A stretch of DNA of 64,000 nucleotides, taken from assembly GCF_032884065.1 (NCBI RefSeq), contig NC_088873.1, positions 37,993,823 through 38,057,822 of the forward strand, given 5' to 3'. Position numbers and translations under genes: made by a program. The notes below the pieces were generated by a model, which worked only from the letters and a program-made list of their open reading frames with translations, did no database searches and had not been told where the DNA came from. Within the stretch, counting starts at the first letter, position 1. Each line of letters starts with the position of its first letter. The DNA is from Artemia franciscana (taxonomy: Eukaryota; Arthropoda; Branchiopoda; Anostraca; Artemiidae). Below, piece after piece: positions 15,282-63,210 of this stretch.

Positions 15282-15284
15282 GTG

Positions 15285-17022
15285 GTGGCATTCGAAGCAG
15301 GTGTCCGAATCATCGTAAGGTTCGCTCGGCTACTTGAGTCAAAAACCGAGACTGCTTCGTGAGTTGCAGAAGCTTCTAATTGCTGACGAAGTCGGACCAT
15401 CGTAGGCCCTCGATCCTCCTCAAGCTCTTCGACTGAAATACGTCGATTTCTTTGAGGTTTGCAGCTGATGCTTGCCATGCCGACTAGGCCGTTGAAGATC
15501 CGCAGTTTTGTTGTACGAATGATGTTTGGTTTTCGCCAGAGGTGACGGATCAGTCTGCCCATAGCAGAAGGCGCTTTGGATAATCTCGCTTGCATCTCGG
15601 GGAAAAGCGAGCCATCTGAAGAAATTATGGAGCCCAGGTAGGTGAACTCTTGAACAACTTCGATGCCAGTGGGGCTGTCCAGGCTAACTGGAGAGCTAAC
15701 AGTTGGAGAAGACGGGTCTATGACCATAATTTTAGTTTTGTTCCAGTTTATATGCATTCCTATTTTGGCAGCCTCTTTTTGTAGAATTCGGAGTGCTTCC
15801 AGCAGCTGCTCCATGGAGTTTGCCAGAATGGCCAAATCTTCAGCAAAATCAACATCTGTGATTGCACGATATTTAAATTTGAGCCCAAAGCTGAGACGCG
15901 AAGTGGTTTTTGTCATAATGTAATCTACGATGACGTTGAAGAGCTCTGGGGCCACTGCACATCCTTGGTGCACTCCTGTCGTGATTTGAAAGAACTGGCT
16001 GTGTCGGCTGTTTACTTGTACACAGCTCTCCTTCTAATGTTGCAGTGCCTTTAGAAGTCTGCAATATTTCTCAGGAAGGCAAGTCAACTCTGGAATCTGC
16101 CAAAGAGCTTCTCGATCAACTGAGTCAAATGCAGCAAGGAAGTCGACGAAAGCAATAAATGCTTTCTGTCGAAACTATGTGGTCTTCTCTACTATTTGTC
16201 GAATTGTGAAAATCTGCTCGATGGTTGAACGGTCCGAGATAAAACCAGCTTGCTTCGGTCGCCATATTTTTCGAATGATATTCCGACATCGATCCAGCAG
16301 GACCATTGAAAACGGTTTGTCAGGGACTGACAGTGGGGCTATTCCCCGTTAGTTGTAGCAGTCACTTCTTGAGCCTTCCCTCTTCCATAAAGGAATGATG
16401 ACACCTTTGGCCAATCCTCAGGAATTATCTCTTTTTCCCCGATTGTACAGAACAGGGTGTGGAGACACAGGAGCATTGCAGGACCTTCATATTTAAGCAG
16501 CTCTGAGCTTATGTCACAGATACCAGCAGGTTTATTATTCTTGAGGCATTTTACTGCATATTCGGTTTCTGAGGGCCTGAAAGGCTCGTCTGGAGGAACA
16601 TCTGTTTCAGGTCTTTGACTGCTAGGTTGGCTGTGGCTCTCATTAGGAGGCACGGACGGGCTAGTATTGTTGAGGAGTGAACAGTGGTCCTTCCACCGCT
16701 CAAGACAAGAGCCTTCATCAGAAAGAAGTGTCCTATCCCTGGATAGGACGGGACCCAAGGTGGGAGTTTTATTTTCCGTGAGGTCTCGGAGATGCTTGAA
16801 TAGGCTACCCGTGTCTTTCTTTTTTGCAGCTAGTTCAATTTCATCGGTTTTCCTTGCAACAAACTGGGTTCCGTCCCGATGAATGAGTCTGGTCCGCACT
16901 CTAATGAGCCTTCGATATGTGGTCATGTCCCCAAGAAGTCTTGCCTTCCGTCTTTGCTCTATGACTTGCAGTGTGCCATTGGTTAGCCACAATTTCTTTG
17001 GGTAACTCCTCTTGCCGAGCAC
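15285..17022 (-). pseudogene. RTE-type LINE (CFDP2-like), reverse transcriptase region
   Basis: Minus-strand frames 17022-16339 and 15973-15285 cover the pre-polymerase segment and the polymerase. The first has SLFKHLRDLTENKTPTLGPV and ends in NNKPAGICDISSELLKYEGP ... IPEDWPKVSSFLYGRGK; the second starts HQGCAVAPELFNVIVDYIM. The catalytic box reads DVDFAEDLAIL, where the family has ADD, so the first catalytic Asp of the pair is Glu. EFTYLGSIISSDG, the usual block after the palm, follows. Between the two ORFs, broken frames keep FRQKAFIAFVDFLAAFDSVD-like signals near 16200-16090. The 3' end is cut by the hairpin element at 15281. Stops and the altered box show it is dead. Confidence 0.85.
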
Positions 17023-19689: not shown

Positions 19690-21284
19690 TTAAGAAAATT
19701 CTTTTTTTGGCTAAATAGCTTTCTCTTAGTTTTGATCAGACAATTTTGAGAAATAAGGGGTGGGGAAGGAGGCCTAGTTGCCCTCCAATTTTTCGGTTGC
19801 TTAAAAAGGCAACTAGAACTTTTAATTTTTAACGAAAATTTTTATTAGTAAAAAAATATACGTAACTTAAGAATTAACTTACATAACAAACTTTTATATT
19901 CTTAAATTTTTAATTATATATATGAGGGGGTTTGTCCCCTCGTTAATACCTCGCTCTTTACGCTAAATCTTAAGTTTTGTCCCAATTCTTTAATAATGAC
20001 CCATAAATCAGAAAGGCCGTAGAATAAATAGTTGAAATTACTAAAAATACTTTAGCATAAAGAGCGAATTATTTATCTCTTCCTAAAGACCTCGCTCTTT
20101 ATGCTAAAGTATTTTTAGAACCCCTCATATGCGTAATAATCTCTGTTCGTTTTAAGTTTTAATGCTACTCCTTACTTTCAGTTGAAAAAACTTTTCATGT
20201 TTATTTTTTCATTATTTTTTTTTATAGTAATGCTAGAAAATCCTGCGCCCTTTTCTTTGAATTTCTCTTCCCCCATGAAATATTTCTCCAAGGAAAGATC
20301 CTCCCACATAACCCCCTCTCCTCAACCACACCCCCAACCAAAAAATCCCCTTGAAAACGTCGGTACACTTCCCCAATAACCATTACTGTATGTAAACATT
20401 GGTCAAAGCTTGTAACTTGCAGCCCCTCCCCCAGGGACTGTGGGAGAGTAAGTCATCCCCAAAAACATAGTTATTATGGTTTTCGACTATGCGGAACAAA
20501 AGAACTATCTCAAAATTTCGATCCGTTGACTTTGGGAAAAAAACGAGCGTGGGAGGGGGCCTAGGTGCCCTCCAATTTTCTTGGTTACTTAAAAAGGGCA
20601 CTAGAACTTTTCATTTCCGTTAGAATGAGCCCTCGTGCAACATTCTAGGACCGCTTGGTCGATACGATGACCCCTGGAAAAAAAAAACTAACAAACACGC
20701 ACCCGTCATCTGTCTTCTGGCAAAAAAATTGGAAATTCCACATTTTATTAGATTGGACCTCCGTTGACTTTGGGAAAAAAACGAGCGTGGGAGGGGGCCT
20801 AGGTGCCCTCCAATTTTCTTGGTCACTTAAAAAGGGCACTAGAACTTTTTATTTCTGTTAGAATGAGCCCTCGTGCAACATTCTAGGACCGCTTGGTCGA
20901 TACGATGACCCCTGAAAAAAAAAACTAACAAACACGCACCCGTCATCTGTCTTCTGGCAAAAAATAGGAAATTCCACATTTTATTAGATTGGACCTTGAA
21001 ATTTTTGCAATAGGGTTCTCTGATGCGATGGTGGGATTTTCGTTAAGATTCTATGACTTTTAGGGGGTATTTCCTCCCATTTTCCAAAATAAGGCAAATT
21101 TTCTCAGGCTCGTAACTTTTGATGACAAAGACTAAATTTAATGGAACCTTATATATTTGAAATCAGCCTGACAATCCGATTCTTTTGATGTATCTTTTAA
21201 CATCGAAATTCCGTTTTTTAGAGTTTCGTTTGCTATTGAACCGGGTCGCTCCTTACTACAGTTCGTTACCACTAACTGTTTGAT
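19690..21284 (+). mobile_element. Terminal-hairpin element, copy B, with an internal tandem duplication
   Basis: It is co-oriented with copy A and collinear with it from 'GGCTAAATAGCTTTCTCTTA' to the terminal hairpin at 21258-21279, where one arm has a single mismatch (ACTAACTGT). It lacks the first ~270 bp of copy A. The segment starting 'TTGACTTTGGGAAAAAAACG' occurs twice, at 20527 and 20764, a 237-bp direct duplication with almost identical halves. The inner mirrored pair (20040-20115) is kept. It is non-coding. Confidence 0.8.
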
Positions 21285-23083: not shown

Positions 23084-24338
23084 TCTATACATATAAAAAT
23101 AAGTCGTATGTTTGTTTGTTTGTACGCATATGTCGTCATTATAAGTATATAAGGCCTTGTATATGACGTCATTATAAGTATATAAGGGGCCGATTCAAAG
23201 AGAAATTTTAGTATAAATCCTACAATGGCAGAAGAAACAGCCGAGGAAGCTGCTCAAAGAGTTAATTCAAAGAAAAATTTTAGTATAAATCCTACAATGG
23301 CAGAAGAAACGGCCGAGGAAGCGGCTCAAAGAGTTAATGCCATAAGGCTTGCGGCTAAAAGAGAAAGTAAGAAAAGAAAGCGTGCCGAGGAATAACAAGA
23401 ACAACGTGAATACAGGCTTGCGTCTCAAAGAGAAATTACCAAAAAAATCGTGCCGAGGAATCACAAGAACAACGTGAAAACAGGCTTGAGGCTCAAAGAG
23501 AAATTACCAAAATAAATCATGCCGAGGAATCACAAGAACAGCGTGAAAACAGGCTTGCGGCTCAAAGAGATAATTCCAAAAGAAAGCTTGCCGAGGAATC
23601 ACAAGGGCAACGTCAAAATTATCACCTGGCATTCAGGTACAGCCCAGTCGATGATTATAGCTTGAGTAGGTATGTTCAAATCGGGACTATGTCTAAAATT
23701 TGTCCCTATTGCAAGGCCTTGAAATGTAATGGTGAAACAATGGGAATGTGCTGCGCCTCAGGAAAAGTTAAACTTCCTCAACTGGCTGTACCACCAGAGC
23801 CATTGAAGACTTTATGACGTTACAGACCGGGACACAAGGAATATAAGTGACGACCGAGACACTCAAAGAGAAATTACAGACCGAGACACCGGGACACAAA
23901 TGACGACCGGGACACAACTACAACGGGGATGCCGGGAGGGCACAGGGGGGGATATATAAATGACGACGGGGACGCAGGGAATGTTTGATTAGCAATCGCC
24001 ATCAACAAAGCTCAAGGGCAATCAAAAGAAAAATGCGGTATAGATCTGAATACGGATTGTTTTCCCATGGACAATTATATGTTGCATGTTCAAGAGTTGG
24101 TAAACCTGACAGTGTATTTATATGCACAGACAATGGGACAGCGAAGAATGTTGTATATTCGCATGTTTTACGTAGTTAAAAACATATATATATATATCTA
24201 TCTATATTCACAGGTGGGACACAGGGACACAACTACAATGGCGCGTAACGACTTACATGCGCGGGGGGACTTGGAGGGCACGAAGCGCCCCCTCCAACAA
24301 GGTGTTGGTGTGGCGCGAAGCGCCACACTAACAGCTAG
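23084..24338 (+). mobile_element. Internally deleted Helitron (derivative of the element at 54.6 kb)
   Basis: The 5' end A/TCTATACATATAAAAATAAG and the 3' end in a GGTGTGGCGCGAAGCGCCAC-type hairpin plus CTAG/T match the large Helitron. Inside are several ~69-bp repeats encoding the RAEESQEQRENRLAAQRE-type charged repeat, then FRYSPVDDYSLSRYVQIGTM and the cysteine-rich CPYCKALK ... MGMCCASGKVKLP. Next comes a 'GACCGGGACAC' minisatellite (23825-23960). Only the last coding bits of the helicase survive ([13 protein letters not shown] near 24080). Rep and the helicase core are missing, so it is non-autonomous. It is 1,255 bp long. Confidence 0.9.
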
Positions 24339-31409: not shown

Positions 31410-31720
31410 CTCAGGAACTAGCTCGAACGCAGAACTCACTCCTTTGTATCCAAAATTTTATTGTAACAATTAATTTAAGCAATTATCACGATATCATTCA
31501 CTACATGGCATAACAACATAAGTCTACAACATGGCATGGCAACCGTTGTATCCGGGGGAAAGCAGTCAGACAAGTTTATCCATTGACTGCTAAATGCGAA
31601 CTGATTAGATGATCATACTTCAACAAGCAGCAGGATATTCGTTGGACTTGACTTCCGGTTGAAGTTCCAATGTCAATATCAGATTTTATGCTGGTAATTT
31701 TTGGGTATCCGTTTGACTGA
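31410..31720. repeat. Uninterrupted copy of the repeat hit by the 13-kb hAT
   Basis: From GAACTAGCTCGAACGCAGAA to CTTGACTTCCGGTT this segment matches 49980-50156 joined to 63128-63210. It runs straight through GACTGCTAAATGCGAAC, where the other copy is split, and so serves as the empty-site reference. The repeat class is unknown; a solo LTR is possible but untested. Confidence 0.85.
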
Positions 31721-43606: not shown

Positions 43607-44777
43607 TCTATCAGATAGAAATAGGACTTATATAAATCCTAGAAATATAAATAGGATTTAGTATAAATCCTACAACGACAGAAGAAACAGCCGAGGAAGC
43701 GGCTCAAAGAGTTAATGCCAAAAAGCTTGCGGCTAAAAGAGAAAGTAAGAAAAGAAAATGTGCCGAGGAATCACAAGGACAATGTGAAAACAGGCTTGCG
43801 TCTCAAAGAGAAATTACCAAAAAAATCATGCCGAGGAATCACAAGAACAACGTGAAAACAGGCTCGCGGCTCAAAGAAATAATATCAAAAGAAAGCGTGC
43901 TGAGGAACCATAAGAACAACGTGAAAACAGGCCTGAAGCTCAAAGAGAAATTACCGAAAAAAATCATGCCGAGGAATCACAAGAACAACATGAAAACAGG
44001 CTTGCGGCTCAAAGAGATAATACCAAAAGAAAGCGTGGCGAGGAATCACAAGAGCAACGTCAAAATTATTGCCTGGCATTCAGGTAGAGCCCAGTCGATG
44101 ATTATAGCCTGAGCAGATGTGTTCAAATCGGGACTATGTCTAAAATTTGTCCCTATTGCTAGGCCTTGAAATTCAATGGCGAAACAATGAGAATGTGTTG
44201 CGCCTCAGGAAAAGTTAAACTTTCTCAACTGGCTGCACCACCAGAGCTATTGAAGACTTTATGACGTTACAGACCGGGACACAGGGAATATAAATGACGA
44301 CCGGGAAGCTCAAAGAGAAATTACAGACCGATACACCAGGACACGAATGACGACTGGAACACAGGGAATATTTATGACGACCGGGACACAGGGACAAAAC
44401 TACAACGGGGACGCCGGAAGCGCACAGGGGGGATATATAAATGACGACGGGGACACAGGGACCATCAACAAAGCTTAAGGGCAATCATTAGAAAAATGCA
44501 GTTTAGATCTGAATACGGATTGTTTTCCCATGGACAATTATATGTTGCATGCTCAAGAGTCGGTAAACCTATCAATCTATTTATATGCACAGACAATGGG
44601 ACAGCGAAGAATGTTGTATATTCGCACGTTTTACGTATTTAAAAACATACATATATCTATCTATATCCACAGGTGGGACACAGGGACACAACTACAATGG
44701 CGCGTAACTAATATGGCGCGTAACGACTTACGCGCGGGGGGGGGCTTGGAGGGGCGAAGTGCCACACCAACAGCTAG
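43607..44777 (+). mobile_element. Second internally deleted Helitron
   Basis: It has the same layout as the copy at 23084: 5' TCTATC start after A, charged-repeat coding units (43680-44060), the block 'GTCGATGATTATAGCCTGAG', a 'GACCGGGACACAGGG' minisatellite (44265-44460), the helicase C-terminal scrap [13 protein letters not shown] near 44530, and the end CACACCAACAGCTAG/T. The 3' hairpin is degraded (GGGGCGAAGTGCCACACC). It is non-autonomous. Confidence 0.87.
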
Positions 44778-46082: not shown

Positions 46083-46574
46083 ATTTATATGGATCATTTT
46101 AATGGACTTAGTTTTAAAATACACGCCAAGGGCTATGGGATAAAATGGGATCGAATAGGAGTGTAAAACTCTCCTTGACTTAGATTATGCTATTGATTTG
46201 ATGTCAAAATGAATTGTTTTTTGGAGGTATTGAGAGCTTAAGGTTCAAGAATGGGTATGAAAATTAATTTAAGAAGACTAATTCACTTAGACCGGGAATT
46301 AGAGGTGATGTTAAGTAAAGAGGAGATTAATGATTTAGACAGCTTCATTTAATTGGGAAGTGTTATCAATGAAGGTGAATGTTGATGTTTAAAGTAGAAT
46401 AACCAAAGTGTTTTCACAGTTGAAAAGATTTTGGAAGAATGGGAAGATAGGCGTGGGAACAGCGATTGGAATATTGGAAGTTACAGTAATGACAGTGGAC
46501 AAACAGAAGTCAAGCAGTGGTTAAGCAGAGAAAATGCTTACAGATTCTTTTCGGTACCTGTCTGCTTGACCATA

Positions 46575-48325
46575 TCAAACAGTTCGTGGTAACGAACTGT
46601 AGTAAGGAGCGACCCGGCTCAATAGTAAACGAAACTTTAAAAAACGGAATTTTGATGCAAAAATATACATCACAAGAATCGTATTTTCATGCTGATTTTA
46701 AATATATAAGTTTCATCAAATTTAGTCTTTGTCATCAAAAGTTTTATCAAATCAAATTTAGTCTTTGTCATCCAAAATTTGCCTTATATTGGAAAATAGG
46801 GGGGAAACCCCTAAAAGTCTTAGAATCTTAACGAAAATCACACCATCATATTCGGCGTATCATAGAACCCTATAGCAAAAATTTCAAGCTCCTATCTACA
46901 AAACTGTGGAATTTCGTATTTTTTTCCAGAAGACAAATCACGGGTGCGTGTTTATTTTTATTTTTTTTTCCAGGGGTCATCGTATCGACCAAATGGTCCT
47001 AGAATTTCGCAAGAGGGCTCATTCTAACGGAAATGAAAAGTTCTAGTGTCTTTTTCAAGTGACCAAAAAAATTGGAGGGCACCTAGGCCCCCTCCCACGC
47101 TAATTTTTTCTCCAAAGTCAACAGATCAAAATTTTGAGATAGCCATTTGGTTCCGCATAGTCAAAAACCATAATAACTATGTCTTTGGGAATGACTTACT
47201 CCCCCACAGTCCCTGGGGGAGGGGCTGCAAGTTACAAACTTCGACCAGTGTTTACATATAATAATGGTTATTGGGAAGTGTACAGATGTTTTCAGGGGAT
47301 TTTTCTTTTTGATTTTGTGGGTGGGATTGAGGTGAGGGGGCTATGTGGGAGGATCTTTCATTGGAGAAATATGTCATGGGGGAACAGAAGTTCAATGAAA
47401 AGGGCGAAGGATTTTCTAAAATTACTGTAAAAAAACAATGAAAAAATAAACATGGAAAAGTTTTTTCAATTGAAAGCAAAGAGTAGCATTGAAACTTAAA
47501 ACGAACAGAGATTATTATGCATATGAGGGGTTCTAAAAATACTTTAGCATAAAGAGCGAGGTATTTAGGAGGAGATAAATACCTCGCTCTTTATGCTATA
47601 GTATTTTTAGTAATTTCAATTATTTATTCTACGGCCTTTCTGATTCAGGGGTCATTCTTAAAGAATTGGGACAAAACTTAGGATTTAGGGTAAAGAGCGA
47701 GGTATTAACGAGGGTACAAACCTCCTCATATACATAATAAAAATTTAAGAATATAAAAGTTTGTTACGTAAGTTAATTCTTCAGTTACGTATATTTTTTT
47801 ACTAATAAAAACATTCGTTAAAATTACAATTTATAGTTGCCTTTTTATGTAACCAAAAAATTGCAGGGCAACTAGGCCTCCTTCCCCGCCCCTTATTTCT
47901 CAAAATCGTCTGTTCAAAACTAAGAGGAAGCCATTTAGCCAAAAAAGGAATTAATATAAAAATTTCATTTTAATAATTTATGTGTGGAGAGCCAAAATCA
48001 AACATGCATTAATTCAAAAACGTTCAGAAATTACATAAAAAAAACTAATTTTTTTAACTGAAAGCAAGGAGCGACATTAAAACTTAAAACGAACAGAAAT
48101 TACTCCGTATTTGAAATAGGTTGTCCCCTTCCCAACGCCTCGCTCTTTACGCTAAAGTTTTTAATTGTTTTAAAAAGTAGAATTGTGGCCAAGAGTCAAA
48201 CTTTAGCGTAAAGAGCGAGGCATTGAGGAGGGGACAACCCATTTCATATACGGAGTAATTTCTGTTCGTTTTAAGTTTTAATGTCGCTCCTTGCTTTCAG
48301 TTAAAAAACTAACTTTTTTATGTAA
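46575..48325 (-). mobile_element. Terminal-hairpin element, copy C (reference, complete)
   Basis: Both edges are set by the LINE frame that it splits (DHI before, NCKQK after), giving about 1.75 kb. In its own orientation it starts near AAAAAAGTTAGTTTTTTAAC and carries a large mirrored module (48050-48315 on the plus strand). In that module AACTGAAAGCAAGGAGCGAC pairs with GTCGCTCCTTGCTTTCAGTT and CTCGCTCTTTACGCTAAAG pairs with CTTTAGCGTAAAGAGCGAG. It has a second mirrored pair (47525-47615) and the 'AAAGTCAACAGATC' module. It ends with the hairpin at 46579-46600 plus TTGAT. There is no long open frame and no evident target duplication. Confidence 0.83.
48050..48315. repeat. Long fold-back module of copy C
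   Basis: Two arms of roughly 110-120 bp mirror each other around a ~55-bp centre, pairing the whole stretch from 'AACTGAAAGCAAGGAGCGAC' to 'CGCTCTTTACGCTAAAGTTT'. RNA or single-stranded DNA of this region would form a long hairpin. Confidence 0.9.
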
Positions 48326-49979: not shown

Positions 49980-50156
49980 CGAACGCAGAACTCATTCCTT
50001 TGTATCCAAGATTTTATTGTAACAATTAATTTAAGCAATTATCACGCTATCATTCACTACATGGCATAACAACATAACAACATAAGTCTAAACATGGCAT
50101 AGCAACCGTTGTATCCGGGGGAAAGCAGTCAGACAAGTTTATCCGTTAACTGCTAA
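49980..50156. repeat. Left half of the repeat split by the 13-kb hAT
   Basis: It matches 31414-31600 closely, with an extra ACAACATA in one tract. It breaks at the 8-bp duplication ACTGCTAA (50149-50156). The right half resumes at 63128. Confidence 0.9.
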
Positions 50157-50439
50157 CACTGTTGCCAGATTGTCAGCGCAGAAAAACGCCCAGGGGTTTT
50201 CAAAACAATCCCGAACAAGCCCCAGAAAATTCTACCGAAATAATCCACTTTTGACATTCCACTTTATAGTGAGCGCGTACGAAAGCTTGTTTCACGAAGA
50301 ATGCTATATCTAGATGCAGAATTAATACTGAATTTTCAGTCCAAAGCTATTCTCATCGTTTTTTCTTTAAACTTCTGGAAGAGTCTCAATTTTGTTGATC
50401 TCCCCTCAACATTTGCAGGGAAGAAGAATAAACCTACCC

Positions 50440-51200
50440 GGCAGGCGGGAATACTTGACATTTTTTTCTGCTTTTAAGTTTGAAATATAAAAGAAATACC
50501 TTAAGCTGTATGGCAGCCCATAGCTCTGGCCTCTCCTAATATCGAGTTAATCTTTCGTTTCTTTTTTAAGCTGTATGGCAGCTAAATATTTTGAACTCAT
50601 GTTTTTTTTCTGACGCTAAGCTTTTGCATTGACAAACTTATGGTGCGGAAGTAAAACTGTTTACTTGGAAACGAATTCGTCCATAGAATTTTCAAACTCG
50701 AGACTTTTGGAATCAAATATTATGTGTTCAGACCTAGGATCAAAGTTGGACCATTTAATTGTGACTGCTGCTATTTTAGATGAAAGCTAGATAAAAAAGA
50801 CAAAGGGGCCATTTCCCAGCCGAGCCCTCGAGGCGAATCCTAATATGTTATTATTCCTTACAGTTTCAGTTTTCCCTCTGAATTTACACCTTTCAACAGA
50901 GTTGCCGCCTCTCCATGCCCTTCCGAAAGCTATAGCCATACACAAATAAAGCCACTTCCCCTTGCCCTACTGCCCTAATAAGTGATATTTTTTTAATTTG
51001 TCACTAAATATTATGTTTTCTTTATGTTTATCTCTTTAGAAACCTATTTTGAAGCAAGATTATTTAATCTAAAAATTACCTTCAGCTAAGTGGCAGCTAT
51101 ATATTTTGAACTTTTATGATTATTTCGGATGTTAAGACTTTTAACTGAAAACCTTTTTTTTCTCGTCACCTAGTTTTAATGGACGCGGTTCTCAGCTATT
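50440..51200. repeat. Diverged repeats in the left flank of the hAT element
   Basis: 'TTAAGCTGTATGGCAGCTAA' and related strings recur near 50500, 50565 and 51075, each followed by a 'TATTTTGAACT' block, suggesting units of about 70-500 bp. No coding frame was seen. Confidence 0.5.
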
Positions 51201-51955
51201 TCTTAATGTATTGACTTCATAATACAACAAAAAAAAAAATTCACAAGTAACAGAAAACACAATGAGATCTCTTCAATAAGCAAAATAATTTTTGTGAACA
51301 AAACAGAATTTTGGCCAAACTATCACGACAAGAAATACACAGGCTTAATTACTTCTTTGGATAGAATGGTAAAATGCAAAAAAGAAAATAATTGAAGCTT
51401 GAAATTTTGTAATACAAAGGAAAAAAGCTTCAAGAGAATAAACACAATGATTGAAAACTCTCAATACTTTTGGTACATTTTCTTAGTACCTCAAGTAAGA
51501 AAAATTAAAAATAATTTTTGAGAAATGAGATACTATGTACAGCTTTTGACAAAAAAAAATGCTACAACAGCTGAAATACCAATATATTGAACGAACACGA
51601 GGAACTTTTGATTTAAAAAAGCTAACTGCAAGCTAAAATTTCAGCGTCATCACCTTAGGAAAATATGCATATCAAAGGCTGATTATCTTGTAATACAGCA
51701 TTTTGGTTTTTAAATGCAGCTTATCAATCGATTTCTTTTACCAATCAGGCTTCAACCAAGATTCCTAGTTTTGGCTCCACTGAAGGGGCTCATTTTTATA
51801 TTAATTTCACAGAATCTGAAGAATTCCAACATTCGTTTTTCTTTTTTTTTTTAAACCTACGGTTTCTTATTCAATTCCTATTCGTACCTTGAGGTGCAAA
51901 TTGAAAAAAAAAACTCTGATTAAAAAATAATTTCGTATCTTATTTTCAACATTAT
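51201..51955. other. hAT element interior, no gene seen
   Basis: AT-rich, with short A and T runs and no product-like frame. Confidence 0.4.
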
Positions 51956-51959
51956 TTAC

Positions 51960-52290
51960 TAGAATAATCAGGAAAACGTAGAATATTAAGCTTTCTCGTT
52001 GGATTTTCAAATTTTTTTTTGGAAAGTCAGCAGAGTGTAAAATATAAAATTCTTTCATTGGAATTCCAAACTAATTGGTTGGACTTTGAAAAATTGGGTA
52101 TTGGAAAGTCAAGAGAACATGAAATATCAAACTTTTCGCTGGACTTAAAACGTTTTTTGTTGGAAAGTTAAACAAATCGTTGAAGATCACATTCACTTTT
52201 TTGATTTTACATCTTTGCTGAAAATTCAATTATAATTTTTTTTTAAGCAATTGAAAGTTTAACACATTTTCTTGTTGGAAATCCATTTTT
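51960..52290. repeat. ~95-bp degenerate tandem repeat
   Basis: Three to four units share 'TTGGAAAGTCA', 'AAATATCAAACTTTTCGCTG'-like and 'TTGGACTTT' segments near 52000, 52090 and 52150. The repeat lies just downstream of the transposase stop. Confidence 0.6.
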
Positions 52291-52392
52291 TTTTTAAAGT
52301 GTATATCTACAACTCAAGAAGTTAGAAAAGAACACCAAGAGAAAAACAGCATCAGATGAAAAGAAAGCGAATAAAGAGCCAGCTCTGCAATT

Positions 52393-54160
52393 CTATAGTA
52401 AAACCAGTATGTCATCAAGATCATTGTTAAAATTCATATCTGTGGTTGCAGTGGAACCCCCAAGCCTATAGATTTCACTGTTGAACTGCAACATTTTTTT
52501 AGTAGGCTCAAACTGGGAACAGCAAATACCACACACTGACAACCACAGCCGAAAGACTACTATTGAGTTCAGCATAGGCAACAACATTCGATTCCGAAGT
52601 TTTTTCTTCACAATATTCATCATAGAAAATGACCTCTCAACTACAGCATTGCTTATTGGCAGGCTGAGGAGGGTCAATGCCCACCTCGCTAAGTCACTAC
52701 ATGGAGGAACACCAGCTGGATCAAGATGGTGCAGGACCTTGACCCAGAATTCACAAGAGTCACTTGGAATTTCTCCGCCACAAGCTGATGCCCAGTCAAC
52801 TACCAAGAGTCTTCTCCACTGACTCTCTAACTCACTAATATTCAGCACTGGAATAACATCCAAAGGCAAATCACTAAATCGAGGACGTAACTGCGACAAA
52901 CAAATGGTCGGAGAAAGCACTTTCAGTTTCAGCAGAGAATCAAGAGCTGGGGGCAAGCGCTTTAAAACTGCTCTAGCAGCTGTCTTGAGAAATTTGAGGC
53001 AACGCAGCTTTACTTCTTCCTTTTGATGACTGATCAGCTTAGATCTTTCAAGCTCCAAATTGAACTCGTATCCGTAGTCAACCTGGGCTGTAGGAAGGTA
53101 ATAAATTTCGAAGTCCATATTCATTGTTAATGACACTGCAGACGTGTGCAATATTCTCTGCAGAAGACTTAATACAAACTCTTTTAGCTCTTGAAATAAA
53201 CGAAAGTGATCTGCGTTAGTGTGTTGGAAAAGGAGGTTAACTCTCTGAAATTCGGCCAATAATGGCTTCAAGAAAACAATATATGCCTTATTTCGTTCAT
53301 CGAGGTACATATCATGGAGCATTCGGGCAGTGTAGCAACGTTCCTTTTCCTTCGCTAATCGAAAGTGCGCTGACAGCTCAGAATACTGCTCGAGTATGCG
53401 AACGACTGCTCTATATCGAGATAGCCAACGGGTATTGGAAGGAGCAATCATTTTCAACGGGGTATTCCCATCGTTTATGAGCTGGAACATTTGCTGATAT
53501 GCCTCTCTTCGTAAAGGACTAACGTTAAACCACTTGTAAGTCTCTGAGAGCATGAACTCCAAATTGCTTGGAAGCTCTCTAACAGCCTCGGAAGCACACA
53601 AATGTAGGGAGTGACATACACATTTGAAGAGTTGGAGTTGAGGCAACCCGTCATCTTGTAATAACGTGAACAGCGAATGGTTCCCACCACACATGTTGTT
53701 TGCTCCATCTGTCCCAATACCTATCAGATTTTTAAGGGGAATTCCACATAAAGCTAAGACGTCTTTCAGTTCTTGATGTAAAATCACAGAAGTGGTCGAA
53801 GGTACTTAAACCATGCCCAAAGTAGCACAAAGAACTTTCTTCATCTTGGGGCTATAGTATCTCACACAAATACACATGAATTTCATGGTGGCAACGTCGG
53901 TCGATTCGTCCAGAATAAGGGAATATCTGCTGTCACCAACATCAGCAACAATCTCTTGGAGACTTTCTGGTCCAAGAACATTCTTGATAAGGGCTGAACA
54001 TTTTGATCCTTCAATTTCGTTGCCTCAGAAACTGGTCCAGGAAAAGCACTCTTGATAATGGTGGATAGGTGGTCAATAGTCATAATCGATGAATGACATG
54101 CGACATGTGCTGCCAAAATCAGTTCTGCTTTTCGTGCTTTGACATCGAGCTGAGTAATTC
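52393..54160 (-). pseudogene. hAT transposase, catalytic and dimerisation exon
   Basis: The exon starts at acceptor TTTTCTTAG (plus 54161-54169) and opens GITQLDVKARKAELILAAHV. The first catalytic Asp is in SLILDESTDVATMKFM. The 464-residue stretch (53787-52393) has TDGANNMCGG with the second Asp, CVCHSLHLCASEAV, the Trp block SNTRWLSRYRAV, and near the end SNAVVERSFSMMNIVKKKLR, the hAT dimerisation signature. Two lesions separate the parts: a one-base shift near 54008 and a TAA at about 53811 (LGMV-stop-VPSTTS). Otherwise the protein is intact, so the copy was active recently. It would have cut and pasted this element. Confidence 0.9.
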
Positions 54161-54789
54161 CTAAGAAAAGAATGGGGTTTTAATTCAGCAGGTTAATCTG
54201 CAAAGTGTCAAATAATTCCTGCACTGCTTTCAACAGTTACTTACTTTTAAAAGTGAGAAATAATTTGAAAGAAGACTAAACTGACTTTTTGTGCAAGCTT
54301 TGGATAAGCATCTAACGCAAGGGTAAAGACGCCCTACAGGCTGAGGTTGAGGAAAGCCTCATATTCTCTGGTATTGACTTTGAATAAAAAGCTTTGAGAT
54401 TGTAACATCCAGTTTGTGATATTTTTTTTACTTCAATCGTTTGAGCTGACAAACCACAGTCTAGGCTACTAGTTCTGCATGTAGTGAGGCCCTGAATATG
54501 TAATGAAGATTGAGACTATATGGATCTTTTCGGCCTTCTGGCCTTTGCCTCCTTACACTCTATCTCCTTGTACATCTATATCTATCTATATAAAAATAAG
54601 TTGTCTGTCTGTCAGGTGACGTCATGTTTCTATGTCGACTTACGTCATGAAGTTAGTTGTCGTCATTTTTGCTATGACGGAGACGTCATTAAAGATATTT
54701 AATCATGAAGTTTGTTGTCGTCATTTTTGCTATGACGGTGACGTCATTGAAGATATTTAAGACATATATCTTCACGTAGAAATCTATTA

Positions 54790-55495
54790 ATGTTTAAGTT
54801 TAAAATGACTGATGAACTTACAATAGCAAAAGCCGATGAAGATGCTCAAAGAGTCTATGCCAAAAAACTTGCTGCTGATAGAGAAAGTCAGAAAAGAAGG
54901 CGTGCCGAGGAATCAAAAGAACAGCAAGGAAACAGGCTTGAGGCTGATAGAGAAAGAAAGAAAAGAAAGCGTGCCGAGGAATCAAAAGAACAGCAAGGAA
55001 ACAGGCTTGAGGCTGATAGAGAAAGAAAGAACAGAAAGCGTGCCGAGGAACTACCAGAGCAACGCGAAAGCAGACTTGCTGCTAAAAGAGAAAGTGAAAA
55101 AAGAAGGCGTGCCGAGGAATCACAAGAACAGCAAGAAATCAGGCTTGCTGCTGATAGAGAAAGTAACAAATGAAAGCGTGCCGAGGAATCACTAGAACAG
55201 CAAGAAATCAGGCTTGCTGCTGATAGAGAAAGTAAGAAAAGAAAGCGTGCCGAGGAATCAGAGCAACCTGAAAGTTATCGCCTGGCATTCAGGTACAGCC
55301 CAGTCGATGATTATAGCTTGAGTAGATGTGTTCAAATAGGGACAATGTCTAAAATTTGACCCTATTGCAAGGCCTTGAAATTCAGTGGTGAAACAATGGG
55401 AATGTGTTGCGCCTCAGGAAAAGTTAAACTTCCTCTATTGGCTGCACCACCAAAGCCATTGAAGACTTTCTAATACTGGAACTACGTCAGAATCT
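54790..55495 (+). pseudogene. Helitron N-terminal charged repeats and zinc-finger-like segment
   Basis: It begins MFKFKMTDELTIAKADEDAQ, then about six units of the type KRAEESKEQQGNRLEADRER, a highly charged, probably helical repeat of ~23 residues. It then reads FRYSPVDDYSLSRCVQIGTM, SKI-stop-PYCKALK and GMCCASGKVKLPLLAAPP. The first Cys of the CxxC is replaced by a stop (TGA); the short copy at 23 kb has TGT there, so the lesion is private. Another stop interrupts the repeats at about 55171. The same segment opens both deleted Helitrons. Its role is probably DNA binding (inference). Confidence 0.85.
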
Positions 55496-57660
55496 AAGCG
55501 TTTTTTGTCAAAAATCAGAAAATACAACTCATGTTTCCAAATGACGTCGTTTGGAGCCCAAATCGAAAATCCAGATCAATTTATGTCTACTTTCAAAGTA
55601 AAAGGGCAAATTTATCATAGAGCAGGGTCCCTTCTACCATTCTCAGGCGAGAATCATAAATTTTACAATTGTACTTCATCAGTGATAGAAATTCTGAATT
55701 GAATGCACGTTGCGAAATTTCTCCCAACGTTGAAAGGACAATCGTTTCCCAATTGCAACATCTTTTCCACGAAAATAATAATTTAGTGCGTCTGTCCAAA
55801 ACAGCCATCGATTTGATGCCTACTGATACGCATAAAATTGTTATTTCCGCTGACAAAACGCCTCCTGGCCAACATGTGCGTAGATACAATGCTCCAACTA
55901 TCGACGAAGTGGCAATCGTTATGGTCAGTGATCAGTTTTTACCTCGAGATATTATTCTTCATAAGCAAAACGCTCAGTTGTTAAGAATTGCTGAAACTCA
56001 TCGATGTTACGATGCCCTACAATATCCTATTATTTTTTGGGATGGAGCCGACGGCTATCACTTTAATATTAAATTGATGAATCCAGCCACTAACAAAGAA
56101 ATGAATAAGAAATGCAGTGCAATGCATTATATTTTAAAATGCCGTGAATTGTTTCACCAATTTGTCGTTGATATGTTTGCTAAAATTGAATCAGAACGTT
56201 TGCTATATATCCGCCTGAATCAGACCAAGCTCCGCTCTGAACAATACATTCATTTGCGAGATGCAGTTATAAATGACGGTAATACCACAAACGTTGGAAG
56301 ATTAACAATTTTACCTTCGTCATATGCTGGCAGTCCCCGTCACATGCATGAATATGCTCAAGATGCTATTGCGTATGTTCGTCTCTATGGTCGTCCAGAT
56401 TTATTTATTACATTTATATGTAATCTATCTTGGGACGAGATACTGCAGCTTTTACTTCAAGGACAATCGGCGGTTCACAGGCATGACATTACGGCCCGTG
56501 TCTTCCGGCAAAAGTTGAAATTACTGATAAACTACATAGTAAAACTTAAAGTGTTTGGGTCAGTGCGATGCTGGATGTACTCAGTGGAATGGCAAAAACG
56601 AGGTTTGCCATACGCACATATACTAATCTGGCTACATTATAAAATTACTAAAAACGAAATTGATGATGTGATTTCCGCTGAAATACCTGATAAAAATGTC
56701 AATAATGGGTTACATGATATTATTGTAAAAAATATGATACATGGACCTTGCGGTGCACTGAACGAAAATTCACCATGCATGGCCAAAGGAAGGTGCACAA
56801 AGTAATATCCTTGACTTTTAGTATCAAACACAATTACTGGCATTGATGGTTACCCACAATATAGAAGAAGATCTACTGAAGATGGCGGTAAAACAGCAAT
56901 AATAAAGAAGCGTAACGGTACCACCATCGAAGTAGATAACCAGTGGGTTGTTCCATATTCCCCATTATTATCAAAAACATTTAATGCACACATAAACGTT
57001 GAATACTGTAACTCCGTAAAGGCAATCAAATACATATGTAAATACGTCAACAAAGGCAGTGACATGGCAGTTTTTGGCTTGCAGCCCGAAATCAAAGATT
57101 TCGACGAAATCGTACAATATCAGGCTGGAAGATACATAAGCAGTAATGAAGCTGTTTGGCGAATTCTTTCATTACCGATACATGAACGTAGTCCAGCTGT
57201 TGTTCACTTAGCGGTACATTTACAGAATGGTCAACGTGTTTATTTCACGGAAACCAACGTGCAACAAAGAGCCCTGAATCCACCGGATACAACATTAACA
57301 GCTTTTCTTCGCTTTGCAAAAATGATTCTTTTTCAAAAAAAACTGCTGTATACTGAAGTGCCTTGGTATTACACGTGGAATACTAAAAATAAAGTATTTG
57401 AACGTCGAAAACAGGGTAAGTCAGTCGACGGCCAACCTACCATTTTCAAAGATACCACGATAGGAAGACTCTACACAGTTCACTCCAATCAACATGAATG
57501 CTTCTTTCTACGCCTGCTTTTGGTGAATGTACCCGGTCCGACATCCTTCGAGTATTTGAGAACTGTAAACGGTACTATACATGACACTTACCGTAGTGCA
57601 TGCCAAGCTCTGAATTTATTGGAGAATGACCAACACTGGGATAACTGAATCAATGACGCG
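55496..57660 (+). pseudogene. Helitron Rep (HUH endonuclease) region
   Basis: 55505-55702 reads KIRKYNSCFQMTSFGAQIEN and shifts frame near 55665 into 55669-56805 (SELNARCEISPNVERTIVSQ ... LQYPIIFWDGADGYHFNIKL). The HUH motif reads RGLPYAHILIWL (about 56602-56637): the family has HAH, so one metal-binding His is Tyr. After two stops at about 56804-56816 the same frame continues with ITGIDGYPQYRRRSTEDGG and the two-tyrosine motif KAIKYICKYVNKG (57021-57060), both Tyr kept. A further stop ends ENDQHWDN at 57648. The gene would nick and transfer the Helitron strand; here it is inactivated. Confidence 0.9.
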
Positions 57661-59400
57661 TGCGAAACGTCAACCCCAAGTCAAATTCGTGCATTGTTTG
57701 GAATCATTTTAACAACTTGCTCTCCATCAGCTCCTACAGAGTTATTGGAAAAATATAAGTCAAAAATGTCCGAAGATATACTCCATCGAAAACAGTTAGA
57801 GACGTCAGATATGACTTTTGATTTTACATCAGAAATTTATAACTACACTTCAGTTATTATAGAAGATTTGTGCGTACGTATGGCAAACAAACCTCTTCAG
57901 GATTTTGGAATACATTCACCTAACCGTATCGCTGCTGTTTCGACATGTGTAGAATTGGATTGTGAACATAGTTACAGTACGAGTGATCTATTGTCGTATG
58001 TACAAAATAACATTTCCAAGTTATCGTCGGAACAAAAAGACATTTATGATACGATAATGCATTGTGTCGATAACAACGTTGGAGAAATTTTCTTTTTGGA
58101 TGCACCAGGAGGTACTGGTAAAACGTTTGTGATAAAACTGATTCTGGCATCAATTCGATCAAAAATGATATAGCGTTGGCAATTGCGTCGTCCGGAATAG
58201 CCGCAACATTGCTGCCTGGTGGAAGAACTGCTCAATCCGCTTTGAAATTGCCTCTGAATTTGCATTCTACAGAAACTCCCACGTGCAATATTTCCAAATC
58301 ATCTGGGATGGATAAAGTATTGCAGCAATGCAAACTTATTATTTGGGATGAGTGCAAAATGGCACACAAAAAATCGCTCGAGGCTCTGGATCAATGCTTG
58401 AAAGATTTGAGAGGGAAGTCGAAACCCTTTGGCAGCACATTAATATTGCTTGCGGGAGATTTCAGGCAAACATTACCTATAATACCTAGATCAACTCCTG
58501 CAGACGAAATGAATGCTTGCCTGAAAAATTCTAATTTATGGGCACACGTAAAAATATTAAAATTAACTACAAATATGCGTGTCCGATTGCAAAACGATGA
58601 CTCTGGTCAAACATTTTCAGATCAATTGCTGGCAATTGGAAACGGAAAGCTCCCAGAAGACTCAATTTCAGGACGTATACAACTACCTGCCGATTTCTGT
58701 AATTTAGTGACGTCCAAAAATGAACTGTTTGAAAAAGTATTTCCGAATATTCTAAAAAATTATAAAAATAATAAATGGCTAAGTGAAAGAGTGATTCTCG
58801 CACCCGAAAATATAGACGTCCACGAAATCAACAATATTGTTTTGACCAAGATTCGAGACCAGGCAGTCCTTTACAAGTCAGTCGACACAGTTTTGGAACC
58901 AAATGAAGTGGTTAATTATCCATCTGAATTTTTAAATTCCATAGATCTTTCAGGGTTTCCACCACACGTGCTACAACTAAAAATAGGCGTACCAATAATA
59001 CTTTTAAGAAATATCAACCCACCAAAGCTTTGCAATGGCAGGCGACTTGCCGTAAAAAAAAACAATGGAAAACCTAATAGAGGCCACAATCTTGACAGGG
59101 CCTTTTGAGGGTGAGGCTGTTCTTATTCCTCGCATTCCCATGATTCCAACGGATCTGCCTTTTCAATTTAAAAGATTGCAATTCCTAATTCGATTAGCAT
59201 TTGCAATCACCATTAATAAAGCTCAAGGTCAATCATTAGAAAAATGTAGTATAGATCTTAATACTGATTGTTTTTCCCATGGACAATTGTACGTTGCATG
59301 TTCGAGGGTCCTGACAATCGTAAACCTGACAATCTATTTATATGCAGCGACAATTGGACAGCGAAGAATGTTGTATATTCGCAAGTTTTACGCAGTTAAT
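57661..59400 (+). pseudogene. Helitron helicase (Pif1-like superfamily 1B) region
   Basis: INDACETSTPSQIRALFGII continues the Rep frame. Walker A is FLDAPGGTGKTFVIKL (about 58096-58140). A one-base loss in an A run at about 58163 shifts into 58176-59108, with IALAIASSGIAATLLPGGRT, Walker B LIIWDECKMAHKK, and LLAGDFRQTLPII. Another shift near 59060 leads to [18 protein letters not shown] and [13 protein letters not shown], the last helicase motifs. Order and spacing match Pif1-like helicases fused to Helitron Rep. The enzyme would unwind the displaced strand; two frameshifts kill this copy. Confidence 0.92.
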
Positions 59401-59407
59401 TTGTATT

Positions 59408-59752
59408 GTATCTATCTATCTATCTATCTATATAAAAACAAGTTGTGTGTATGCATGTTTGTTTGTTTGTAAAAAGAGCGTTTGCTTATGACGTCATTAT
59501 TAGTACATACAGCTTTGTATATGCACAGACAATGGGAAAGCCAAGAATGTTGTATATTCGCAATTTTTACGTAGTTTGAAACACATATATAAATCTATCT
59601 ATATTCACAGGTGGGACACAGGGACACAACTACAATGGCGCGTAACTAATATGGCGCGTAACGACTTACGCGCGCGGGGGGGCTTGGGGGGGGCGCGAAG
59701 CGCCCCACCAACTAGGTGTTGGGGTGGCGCGAAGCGCCACCCCAACAGCTAG
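59408..59752 (+). mobile_element. Possible short Helitron forming the 3' end of the large one
   Basis: Just after the helicase stop there is a second 5'-end-like sequence, TCTATCTATCTATATAAAAA followed by CAAGTTGTGTG, as at 54581. It is followed by a second copy of the last coding bits (ATGTTGTATATTCGCAA at 59378 and again at 59548) and the terminal hairpin. This is either a mini-Helitron joined to, or inserted at, the 3' end of the large copy, or an internal duplication of end sequences. Confidence 0.65.
59717..59747 (+). terminator. Helitron 3' terminal hairpin
   Basis: TGTTGGGGTGGCGC, loop GAA, GCGCCACCCCAACA, followed by G and CTAG (59749-59752). Such a hairpin near the 3' end is known to mark the end of Helitron strand transfer. 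A shorter partial copy (GGCGCGAAGCGCCCC) precedes it at 59691. Confidence 0.9.
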
Positions 59753-59760
59753 TATACTAT

Positions 59761-60150
59761 AAAAGCATCAAAAGGGCGGATTAAAATTGAAACATAATTT
59801 CATGAAACCTGTATTAACTCAGAAGAATAGAGTGTAATAGAGAATCAGCCTACAGAGGATTTTTTTTAATTCTCTATGGCACTTGTTCAGTGTATTGAAG
59901 GTTCACAAATACAGAAATATTTACAATTTACAAAAATAATTTGTAAACTTATAAAGCAAGTTCCATCCAGTTTTGTAAAAAACGATTTGCTGTGGTCTTT
60001 TGGCTCTTCTTGGCAAGGGCCCATATCAGGCTCTTGAGAGTTGGGATTAGGTCAGGAAAGAAAAGCTATCCAGCGATCTTTCTGTCAAAGCACTGTAGCT
60101 GAGATATCCCTTTTGTGCACTGTTAAGGTGCTAACACATTTCCAACTTAC
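59761..60150 (-). other. Remaining hAT intron
   Basis: AT-rich intron between the Helitron and exon 1. No repeat end was noticed. The donor CATG/GTAAGT reads on the minus strand at 60150-60145. Confidence 0.5.
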
Positions 60151-60421
60151 CATGGCTTATAACAGGTTCCTGAATCCTCATGGCTTGAGAGTTCTTCTTA
60201 TGTTTGGCTGAATTGTAATGCTGATGCAAATCAGACTTGTGAGCTCGGAGTACTGCTCCATTGCAGATTTTGCAGCAGGCTTTTATATTGTTTCCAGACA
60301 AAGGCTGTAGCCATCCTTTGAAATCAGGTTCCTGCTCCCATTTAGGGTTGTAGACCCTTTTGCGATCTTTTTTTCTGAGAGGAGTAGATGGCGTGTCATG
60401 AGTGTCTGAAATTAACAACAA
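60151..60421 (-). CDS. hAT transposase exon 1: BED-type zinc finger
   Basis: The minus strand from 60421 reads MLLISDTHDTPSTPLRKKDR, then VYNPKWEQEPDFKGWLQPL, KACCKICNGAVLRAHKSDL and HQHYNSAKHKKNSQ. C-x2-C with the HQHYNSAKH histidines is the BED-finger pattern, with the usual aromatic Trp/Phe before it. The exon ends in phase 1 at ISHATG-type sequence CATG/GTAAGT. The main exon at 54160 starts GA, which completes Gly and continues the frame, so the two exons belong together across 5.99 kb. The finger presumably binds the element's ends. The start codon is uncertain; an upstream acceptor just before 60421 (TTGTTAATTTCAG) could make this an internal exon. Confidence 0.82.
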
Positions 60422-60589
60422 AGGCTATATCTCTAAGTCTCCACAAATAATATTTCTGATAAAACAAGTCTGAAAAATTTTAGTAGGATCAAATGCAGTG
60501 GTATTTTGCTATAAGTAGTTTTTCAACTTTTATTTTAATTTAATACCTCTTTCATAAGTTATGCTAATAAACTGAAGAACTCGGTTTGG

Positions 60590-61295
60590 CCCTATTTTAC
60601 TTAAGGTCTTTAGATCACAAGTTAATATCAGTAATGGTATCAGGCATCTTTGTTTCAATTTCCATATAAACTTGACAATTGATTCACTGGTTCACAGTCA
60701 AATGAAAATTCTGTTTTTTTCTAAACTTCAAACCCTATTTTCCTTTCCTATTTGACCTAGGATCTTCATCTCAACACTTGATGTGATTCATGATTTTAGG
60801 CATTTTTTGTCCATCTTTGATTCAAATCTGTCACTACATTCATATACTATACAAACAAAACGAAAAAAATCAACTTTTTGAACGCTTCAATCTGACTCCC
60901 CCTCATACTATTTAGCCTAGAGTCTTCATCTCAGAGATGAAGAGTTTGGAATTTGATCCGACTTTCACTGAAAACTGCGAAATTAAACTTTTTTCAACAC
61001 TCGAAATTCCCTCAATCTGTTTGAGCTGGGGTCCTTGATCTCAGAGTTTGATTTGAGTAATGATTTTAGGCATCTTTGATCTAGCTTTCATTAAGAACCA
61101 TCAATCTATACATAAGTTATACTGAATTAAACAAGAAGCTCAATTTTCTTCAGCACTGAAAGTCTCCTCTCTCTTGCCCTATTTGAGCTAGGGTCTTCAC
61201 ATCCAAACTTGACATAAGTCATGGTCTTAGGCATGGTTGGTTCAATTTTCATTCAAGTCTGAAAGGGCAGTTCATCTGCTATACTTAATTGCACA
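60590..61295. repeat. ~150-180 bp degenerate tandem repeat
   Basis: Five units share 'CCTATTTGACCTAGGATCTT'-like starts, 'CATCTCA' and 'GTCATGATTTTAGGCATCTT'-like ends (near 60600, 60760, 60915, 61020, 61180). The repeat lies upstream of exon 1 in the hAT element. Confidence 0.75.
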
Positions 61296-62049
61296 AACTC
61301 AACATCTGCAGGTAACATCTAAGGTATCTATGTTGGCACATTGGCTCCCAATTATACTTTCATCTTTTGTCTTAGATAATGGGTCAGTATTGCATACATA
61401 GTCTAATAGGGTCAATTTTAACATGAATAAAGGTTTTGATAGGATATTTATGTTTAGGTTTTATATTTGGGTTTTCATCTCCTGTAGATTCTGCAGTAAT
61501 GGAACATTAGCTGATATTTAGTCTGCTAATTTTCTTTTTAATTTGACTGTTTTGTAAAAAAAAAAAAAAAAAAAAAAAACATAAAATAGTGCAGCAGTCA
61601 GAGAAGTGCTAAAAAATGCAAATCTCCATAATACCCATTACATTAGAGGTATGCTTAGTTGAATATTTGCTTGTTCTGAAGTTTGCCATTTTCATGCCCT
61701 TGCTGTCACTAAAACTGACCACCAATTAGCCACAGAAGGTAATTAAGGGCCTCTCAAAATACATGAATAGGTGTTTGGCATCTTTATTCTTCTATACAGC
61801 CCAAAATTATACAGTTAAAATCTAGGCATTTCAATAAGCATGCCTCTATCATAAAGTCAGTAAACTACCTGCTCAACTTCCACCAAAAATATGCTTTTTA
61901 ATAACAGGCAAACCTTGTCTAGGAAGCTACCTGAATCCAATAGGGTATGCAACTTTCTTACAACAGCAATGAGGATTAAAGATTGGCACTAGATTCAACA
62001 GTTGAATTTCCTTTGACCCTTGAATATAGATGTTACATAATTTACAACC
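61296..62049. other. hAT element interior, poly-A run
   Basis: There is a 23-base A run at 61557-61579. No gene or other structure was seen. Confidence 0.5.
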
Positions 62050-62390
62050 CTTGAATCTCACAATCACCCAATTCGACAGTGGGGTCCAAAAGTTTTTATC
62101 TGGGTGACCGCTCATTTGACAGGTCATCACTACAGGGACAGATGGACCAACCTTGAAGTCTGGGTGACCTCTCTACGGGTTGATGACCCAGTCTAGGTGA
62201 CCTCTCTTTGGGTTGATGACCCAGTCTGGGTGACCTTTATATGGACTGATGACCTAGCATGTATAGAGAGATTACCCAGATTTCAAAGTTGGGCCATAAG
62301 TCTTGGAATGATGACGTGTCAAATGAGTGGTCACCCAGGAGAGCTTGTGGACCCCACTACAATTTGATTGATCACTAGATTCAAAATTCA
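62050..62390. mobile_element. Inverted-repeat element with a minisatellite core
   Basis: The block AGTGGGGTCCAAAAG ... CTGGGTGACCGCTCATTTGA (62078-62120) is mirrored by TCAAATGAGTGGTCACCCAG ... GTGGACCCCACT (62318-62358). Weaker pairing extends to the TTGAATCT strings outside. The centre holds about four ~30-bp units of 'CAGTCTGGGTGACCTCTCTT' type. It is a small non-autonomous transposon nested in the hAT element; ends are not exact. Confidence 0.8.
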
Positions 62391-63127
62391 ACAAGAATTC
62401 AATGCTTGAATGTGATGATGAGCTTTGATCTTCATTGTCATTATAAAATAGTCATGGACCCATTTAGAGCCCACTGCCTGGGTCTCCATTTTGTCTAAGT
62501 CAGGGGTGAGCATGGGTCTGAGTAGGCAGAAGAATCCAGCCTTAAGTCAAATAACCTTGAAATTGACATAAAATGCTGATGAAAACAAACTAAATCATAG
62601 ATTACAAGAAGCAAATTCAAAATGACCTAGGACAAAAGTAGAACTGCAAGGTATTCGTTTGTAACATTTTGAGTGTTCCATGCTTGGGGGTTATGAAGTC
62701 CATCTCGATCTATTTCAAACACAATTTCAAGAAAAAAGTATTTGGAGTCTTTCCTTTATCCATGTTTTGTAGATGAAACATTTCTATTAAATAATTTATA
62801 ACTAGTAATCTGCTGCAGTACATATTTCCATGTGATTCATATTACTTATTTTCTTTTTCTTCTTTAGTGAATCCTAGGGTAAACTTTTCCTTAAATCCGT
62901 TCCTTTTCTTTCCTCGAAAGTTTTGTAAAAGAATGAACTTGAACTTGAAAAAAAAATCTTAAAAACAAAATAAGAAATATTATTTTTGGAGTAGAAAAAA
63001 GCCCAAAACAAGCCAAATTAAAAAATAATAAGCCCCGTTTTCCGCCCCAAGCCCGCAAAAAAAAACGCCCGCCCCAGCCCAGAGAGATAAGCCACCCGGG
63101 CTTGAAACAAGCCAATCTGGCAACAGT
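62391..63127. other. Right flank of the hAT element
   Basis: No gene was found. It ends in a G/C-rich purine-pyrimidine tract (63030-63100) and the terminal inverted repeat. Confidence 0.5.
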
Positions 63128-63210
63128 ACTGCTAAATGCGAACTGATTAGATGATCATACTTCAACAAGCAGCAGAATATTCTTTGGACTTGACTTCCGG
63201 TTTTTCCTGA
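63128..63210. repeat. Right half of the repeat split by the 13-kb hAT
   Basis: It begins with the second ACTGCTAA and continues ATGCGAACTGATTAGATGAT and GCAGCAGAATATTCTTTGGA, as at 31590-31670. Confidence 0.9.

Follow-up and report, generated by a model that had tools for sequence, protein, structure and literature searches.

An oversized hAT transposon of Artemia franciscana with a Helitron in the predicted intron of its transposase gene, and its shorter derivatives

Introduction

hAT elements are cut-and-paste transposons moved by an RNase H-like transposase; Helitrons are recognized by their A^T insertion site and by their Rep and PIF1 domains. Here we describe a locus at which the two occur together, in a 64,000-nucleotide stretch of the Artemia franciscana genome (NCBI RefSeq assembly GCF_032884065.1, contig NC_088873.1, positions 37,993,823 to 38,057,822 of the forward strand), which we call the window and which corresponds to C11:37993823-38057822 in the genome coordinates used below. 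With high confidence we read this locus as an old, decayed copy of a hAT element of about 8 kb that carries a Helitron in an intron, and many of whose relatives elsewhere in the genome are shorter derivatives that have lost part of the transposase gene and most likely moved in trans.

A length of 2.5-5 kb is given as typical of hAT elements, and the BuT2/Tip elements resemble the family described here in having a multi-exon transposase, short inverted repeats and 8-bp duplications, copies with inserted transposons (one of them intronic), and internal-deletion derivatives that keep their ends (PMC3942097); this likeness is one of features. BuT2 is 2.8 kb long with five predicted exons (PMC3942097), whereas the present element is 8.0 kb long, with at least two exons and an intron of about 1 kb. 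Tgf2 of goldfish (PMC4890040), likened here by features only, also has an N-terminal Cx2C...H...H finger ahead of its catalytic part and subterminal repeats, with 17 + 18 end repeats as against six to seven at the right end and two to four at the left end here. The Mar miniature inverted-repeat transposable elements (MITEs) of the Buster group are non-autonomous copies that arose by internal deletion and subsequent amplification (PMC3517528); they are 610 bp long, have no coding capacity and show the nnnTAnnn duplication pattern of Buster elements, whereas the derivatives described below are about 4.9 kb long, keep a catalytic exon and show that pattern in none of 15 duplications. A transposon in a hAT intron (PMC3942097) and amplified deletion derivatives (PMC3517528) both have precedents in the literature. 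Helitrons are recorded at 8.81% in the 1.27-Gb A. franciscana assembly (PMC11492255). The one in the window resembles animal Helitrons (PMC6544945) in its 5' TC and in a 3' CTRR that follows a hairpin, and differs from them in an N-terminal array of STPR-type 23-residue repeats.

Results and Discussion

Counted with everything nested in it, the hAT element spans positions 50157-63127 of the window (12,971 bp), with its transposase on the minus strand, and lies between two copies of the octamer ACTGCTAA, at 50149-50156 and 63128-63135. The octamer by itself is not rare, with four occurrences in the 64-kb window against 2.1 expected by chance; the borders can nevertheless be taken as right, because the flanks, once the element between them is taken out, align over about 250 bp to positions 31413-31661, where the octamer is present once (31586-31593). 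The left arm of this alignment is 92% identical over 189 bp. The original prediction, made from the letters of the window alone, had placed a 13-kb hAT element between these exact octamers and had pointed to an empty target at 31.6 kb; the element is indeed absent there, and the site is a paralogous copy of the target repeat, not an allele. The shared termini that it described are also real. The inverted repeat matches perfectly along 15 bp in the window copy (left end, CACTGTTGCCAGATTG, plus strand, 50157-50172; right end, minus strand, 63113-63127) and measures 16 bp in family copies, whose outermost base is absent from the right end in the window. It has no other exact occurrence in the window, where three further matches with three mismatches each are at chance level.

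A search of the genome (1,270,528,402 bases in 6,468 contigs) found 59 copies of the 16-base end and none of its reversed control. Counting from end positions, 16 pairs of plus and minus ends lie within 15 kb of each other; 15 of these pairs were fetched (a 10.8-kb pair on C19 was left out), and 8-bp duplications flank 12 of them perfectly and one with a single mismatch, the remaining two (L018 and L022) having none. The expectation that other copies would share both ends is thus borne out. The complete copy at C18:22302058-22310049 is 7,992 bp long, is flanked by a perfect duplication, GCGTCACT, and contains no Helitron; its left end is one base off the 16-mer. Its zinc-finger exon is open and ends in the same GTAAGT donor as that of the window copy, and its 595-residue stop-to-stop catalytic frame is open through the same acceptor. 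It had been proposed that the element would be large for a hAT even without the Helitron, at about 7.8 kb, and that a relative with an open catalytic exon might exist, and the C18 copy answers to both proposals. Neither a stop nor an indel is present in two of 32 catalytic-exon sequences, namely L025, the yardstick of the comparison itself, and L026, a finger-less derivative. Tblastn-confirmed scans of the collections genome_contigs, viral_contigs and phages found no relatives elsewhere.

Two loci of the family are arranged unusually. At L022 (C20:9041308-9047714) the octamers that flank two element ends about 1.3 kb apart, TATGTACT and AGTACATA, are reverse complements, an arrangement that would fit an inversion within a single insertion. 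At C7:60837.5-60855 kb the hAT locus is tandemly repeated: the catalytic exon is present twice in near-identical form at a spacing of 9.3 kb, and the right-end region several times at a spacing of about 0.6 kb.

The transposase gene of the window copy is predicted to comprise a zinc-finger exon (60151-60405, minus strand) and a catalytic exon (52393-54160, minus strand) on either side of an intron at 54161-60150, which measures 5,990 bp with the Helitron and 812 bp without it, compared to 970 bp in the C18 copy. The zinc-finger exon ends in ...AAGCCATG|GTAAGT at 60151, and the acceptor CTTTTCTTAG|GAATT at 54160 continues in the same phase. A start at 60421, as first proposed for the finger exon, is too far out, and an AG acceptor places it at 60405. 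The finger has the form Cx2C...Hx5H, to which six frames of the window hold three other, chance-like matches, and its spacing is that given for BED fingers in PMC4890040. The catalytic piece matches the hAT dimerisation region of Pfam (Dimer_Tnp_hAT, PF05699; 23.0 bits against a cut-off of 21.4), and it carries the two lesions originally counted, one frameshift and one in-frame stop. A scan against NCBIfam gave nothing useful.

The plus-strand Helitron lies in this intron at 54575-59752, as predicted. It has TC...CTAG ends, STPR repeats and the domains Helitron_like_N (PF14214, 4.5e-51) and PIF1 (PF05970, 2e-49), in a frame that is broken in several places. Its borders are exact: seven Helitron-free loci (L009, L019, L025, L037, L038, L047 and L048, two of which are near-identical neighbours) have the uninterrupted intron TTGTACA^TATACTATAA, and comparison of the filled with the empty sites shows that the Helitron sits exactly between that A and T, with no duplication. 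The Helitron would have arrived after the hAT element.

Several further observations concern Helitron structure in the window. The 3' part of the long Helitron contains a short tandem unit (59415-59752, plus strand, start approximate), made up of an additional Helitron 5' end and then the 3' end; at 59334-59752 this additional 5' end and a duplicate of the last helicase codons come before the 3' end, which looks like the outcome of a short derivative inserting into the 3' end of the long Helitron or becoming joined to it. The window also contains two shorter relatives, at 23.08-24.34 and 43.66-44.78 kb. Tandem 69-bp repeats, each coding for 23 residues, occur at the N-terminal end of the Rep-helicase gene at 54751-55359, 23193-23618 and 43683-44065; the first array, the only one scanned, matches Pfam STPRs at 1.7e-08. 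A literature search that paired 'STPR' with 'Helitron' found nothing.

Many of the relatives elsewhere in the genome are deletion derivatives. The zinc-finger exon is missing from all 15 copies found via both ends, and the catalytic exon is retained in every one of them, several having small indels in it and L013 a more extensive loss; loci found via the catalytic exon itself cannot be used to judge this retention. Twelve of the 15 have their junction at 54562/62615, where a filler of 25 bases is near-identical from copy to copy; in two others the junction lies at 59985/61910, and in the last at 54184/60696. The main derivative is about 4.9 kb long. Its 111-base junction has full-length matches at no fewer than 21 places (40 of 54 candidates scored), and the filler was of one near-identical type in the 19 copies examined. 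The descent of the 12 copies from a single deletion derivative rests on this shared filler; a tree of the catalytic exon set three derivative copies (L010, L023 and L029) apart from the other sixteen, its support values not having been read.

The proposal that the two exons form one gene with matching phase was weighed against an origin from unrelated nested elements, which their separation by about 6 kb in the window, and a splice junction that has not been observed, would allow. Eight genome loci match the zinc-finger exon at 85% identity or more, three of these matches being broken up. Apart from the window, six of the loci (on C18, C3, C1 and C2381 and two near-identical neighbouring ones on C7) have it on the same strand as the catalytic exon at a distance of 1.31-1.37 kb, computed from the match positions of both, and this adjacency links the two exons. 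Since canonical splice sites and matching phase are found in two copies as well, an unrelated origin is scarcely credible. At the eighth locus (C11:38326921) the finger and the catalytic exon are in opposite orientation. A different alternative concerns the Helitron, which could have travelled as a passenger, jumping jointly with the hAT element as a 13-kb unit and multiplying with it. A second hAT copy, C11:38318456 (L052), about 274 kb from the window copy, does have a Helitron at the same intron position. Its left end (L054), however, shows the same target repeat and the same octamer, at 98.7% identity over 388 bp including the flank, and for this reason it is most simply read as a duplicated locus of the same insertion and not as an independent jump. 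Moreover, among 53 loci, many of them partial, only the window (L024) and L052 run into a Helitron at that place. We consider a joint jump very unlikely and have dropped it. The zinc-finger exon of the second copy is now in the opposite orientation. The right end of that copy is not covered by this comparison, since the stretch retrieved as its counterpart (L055) has no match in the window.

The derivatives raise the further idea that the 4.9-kb form, and the independent deletions that likewise took out the finger side alone, were kept because a catalytic protein without a finger represses transposition and so regulates the family, as the truncated KP protein does for P elements. If true, this protein would be the hAT counterpart of truncated repressors known from other transposons. 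All three deletion classes do remove the finger and keep the catalytic exon, and the uncorrected pairwise ratio of replacement to silent variation (pN/pS) is 0.64 in derivatives, compared to 1.05 in the six copies whose 5' side is intact. Corrected for the mutation spectrum, however, the ratio is 0.86 (0.94 for singletons and 0.66 for shared variants, a difference that is not significant, p = 0.27). Singletons in the catalytic exon of 19 copies comprise 150 replacement, 59 silent and 7 nonsense changes, and shared variants 38, 22 and 3, whereas 190.9, 72.7 and 15.5 would be expected in all under the same spectrum without selection. Three nonsense codons are common to six, three and two derivative copies, groups that make up 11 of the 19, and divergence among ten derivatives is 2.50% in the coding part as against 2.67% and 2.64% in the non-coding flanks. 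The derivative catalytic exon drifts near-neutrally, selection on it is not supported, and a repressor role is improbable. Since copies with premature stops have multiplied while the exon drifted in this way, the simplest account, and the most likely one, is that the derivatives moved in trans.

Some points weigh against the overall reading of an old hAT copy with an intronic Helitron and finger-less derivatives. Similarity of the catalytic piece to Hermes is weak, comprising a single 47-residue stretch around the ER-FS motif (E 0.09), and the predicted structure of the 470-aa catalytic piece alone has a mean predicted local distance difference test score (pLDDT) of 36.4. The zf-BED model of Pfam was not reported for the finger, although its spacing fits BED. 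A search for a first coding exon in the region upstream of the finger gave only two candidates, which overlap a foldback and are unconvincing; the joining of the zinc-finger to the catalytic exon by splicing is itself predicted from phase and splice signals; and the uncorrected pN/pS of 0.64, with 0.66 for shared variants, leaves room for weak past constraint on the derivative catalytic exon. We nevertheless hold to that reading with high confidence, and the original prediction has proved right in nearly everything.

The course of events would then be as follows. A hAT element about 8 kb long would have been cut and pasted into one copy of a dispersed repeat, with duplication of 8 bp. Its transposase would be encoded by two exons or more, one for the N-terminal zinc finger and another for the catalytic and dimerisation parts. 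A Helitron would later have entered the intron between an A and a T, after which the copy would have decayed and its locus been doubled about 274 kb away. The 4.9-kb derivatives, which are most of the both-end copies found, would go back to a single internal deletion in which the zinc-finger exon was lost, and full-length elements would have mobilized them in trans. The enzyme chemistry is likewise presumed, from what is established for hAT elements, and so is the target of the finger.

By its 8-bp duplications, short inverted repeats (within 10-25 bp), dimerisation region and subterminal repeats the family belongs with hAT elements; 7,992 bp is outside the typical range, which is not a strict criterion. 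Ac-group duplications read nTnnnnAn, and this pattern does not appear in ours, T2 or A7 being present at 10 of 30 positions, near base composition. A preference for T3/A6 (17 of 30 positions; p = 0.005, uncorrected for the positions looked at) is a hint only. The nested element is placed with Helitrons by its 5' TC and 3' CTAG, A^T insertion without duplication, Rep-type N-terminal domain and PIF1-like helicase. What is gained is a well-bounded hAT family, with a complete copy of nearly 8 kb, one amplified deletion derivative and filled and empty sites, together with exact Helitron borders provided by family members that lack the Helitron. This should be useful for repeat annotation in Artemia and offers a clean case of an oversized hAT with non-coding flanks of at least 2 kb; the arrangement is ordinary for transposons, and the understanding of hAT or Helitron transposition is unchanged.

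The flanks of the element contain further repeats. Of the tandem arrays originally noted there, the right one, a diverged array that lies upstream of the zinc-finger exon (60570-61310) and consists of five roughly 150-bp units, is real, with nine of ten unit pairs scoring above 100 shuffles, and the left one (51985-52300) is weak, with one of six pairs above shuffles. An imperfect palindrome, or foldback, at 62051-62384 contains a 3 x 33-bp array; a reading of this foldback (62.1-62.4 kb) as a MITE insertion flanked by an 8-bp duplication of its own is rejected, since the palindrome extends past the supposed duplication. Subterminal AAGCC/GGCTT repeats, a motif picked after looking at the sequence, number seven in the last 200 bp of the window copy (62928-63127; at most three in the stretches compared elsewhere) and one at its left end, and in 15 family copies six to seven in the last and two to four in the first 200 bp. 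The zinc finger is presumed to bind them.

Distant matches to the two exons occur in uninterrupted open frames, one of 793 residues at C5:4180844 (29% to the catalytic exon) and one of 738 residues at C9:48300674 (39% to the finger), and further hAT-like genes in the genome may therefore be intronless. Away from the element, the window also contains three copies, about 83-90% alike, of a repeat up to 1.7 kb long (13642-15286, 19697-21284 and 46569-48259) and a 59-bp minisatellite in two inverted blocks (6410-7451).

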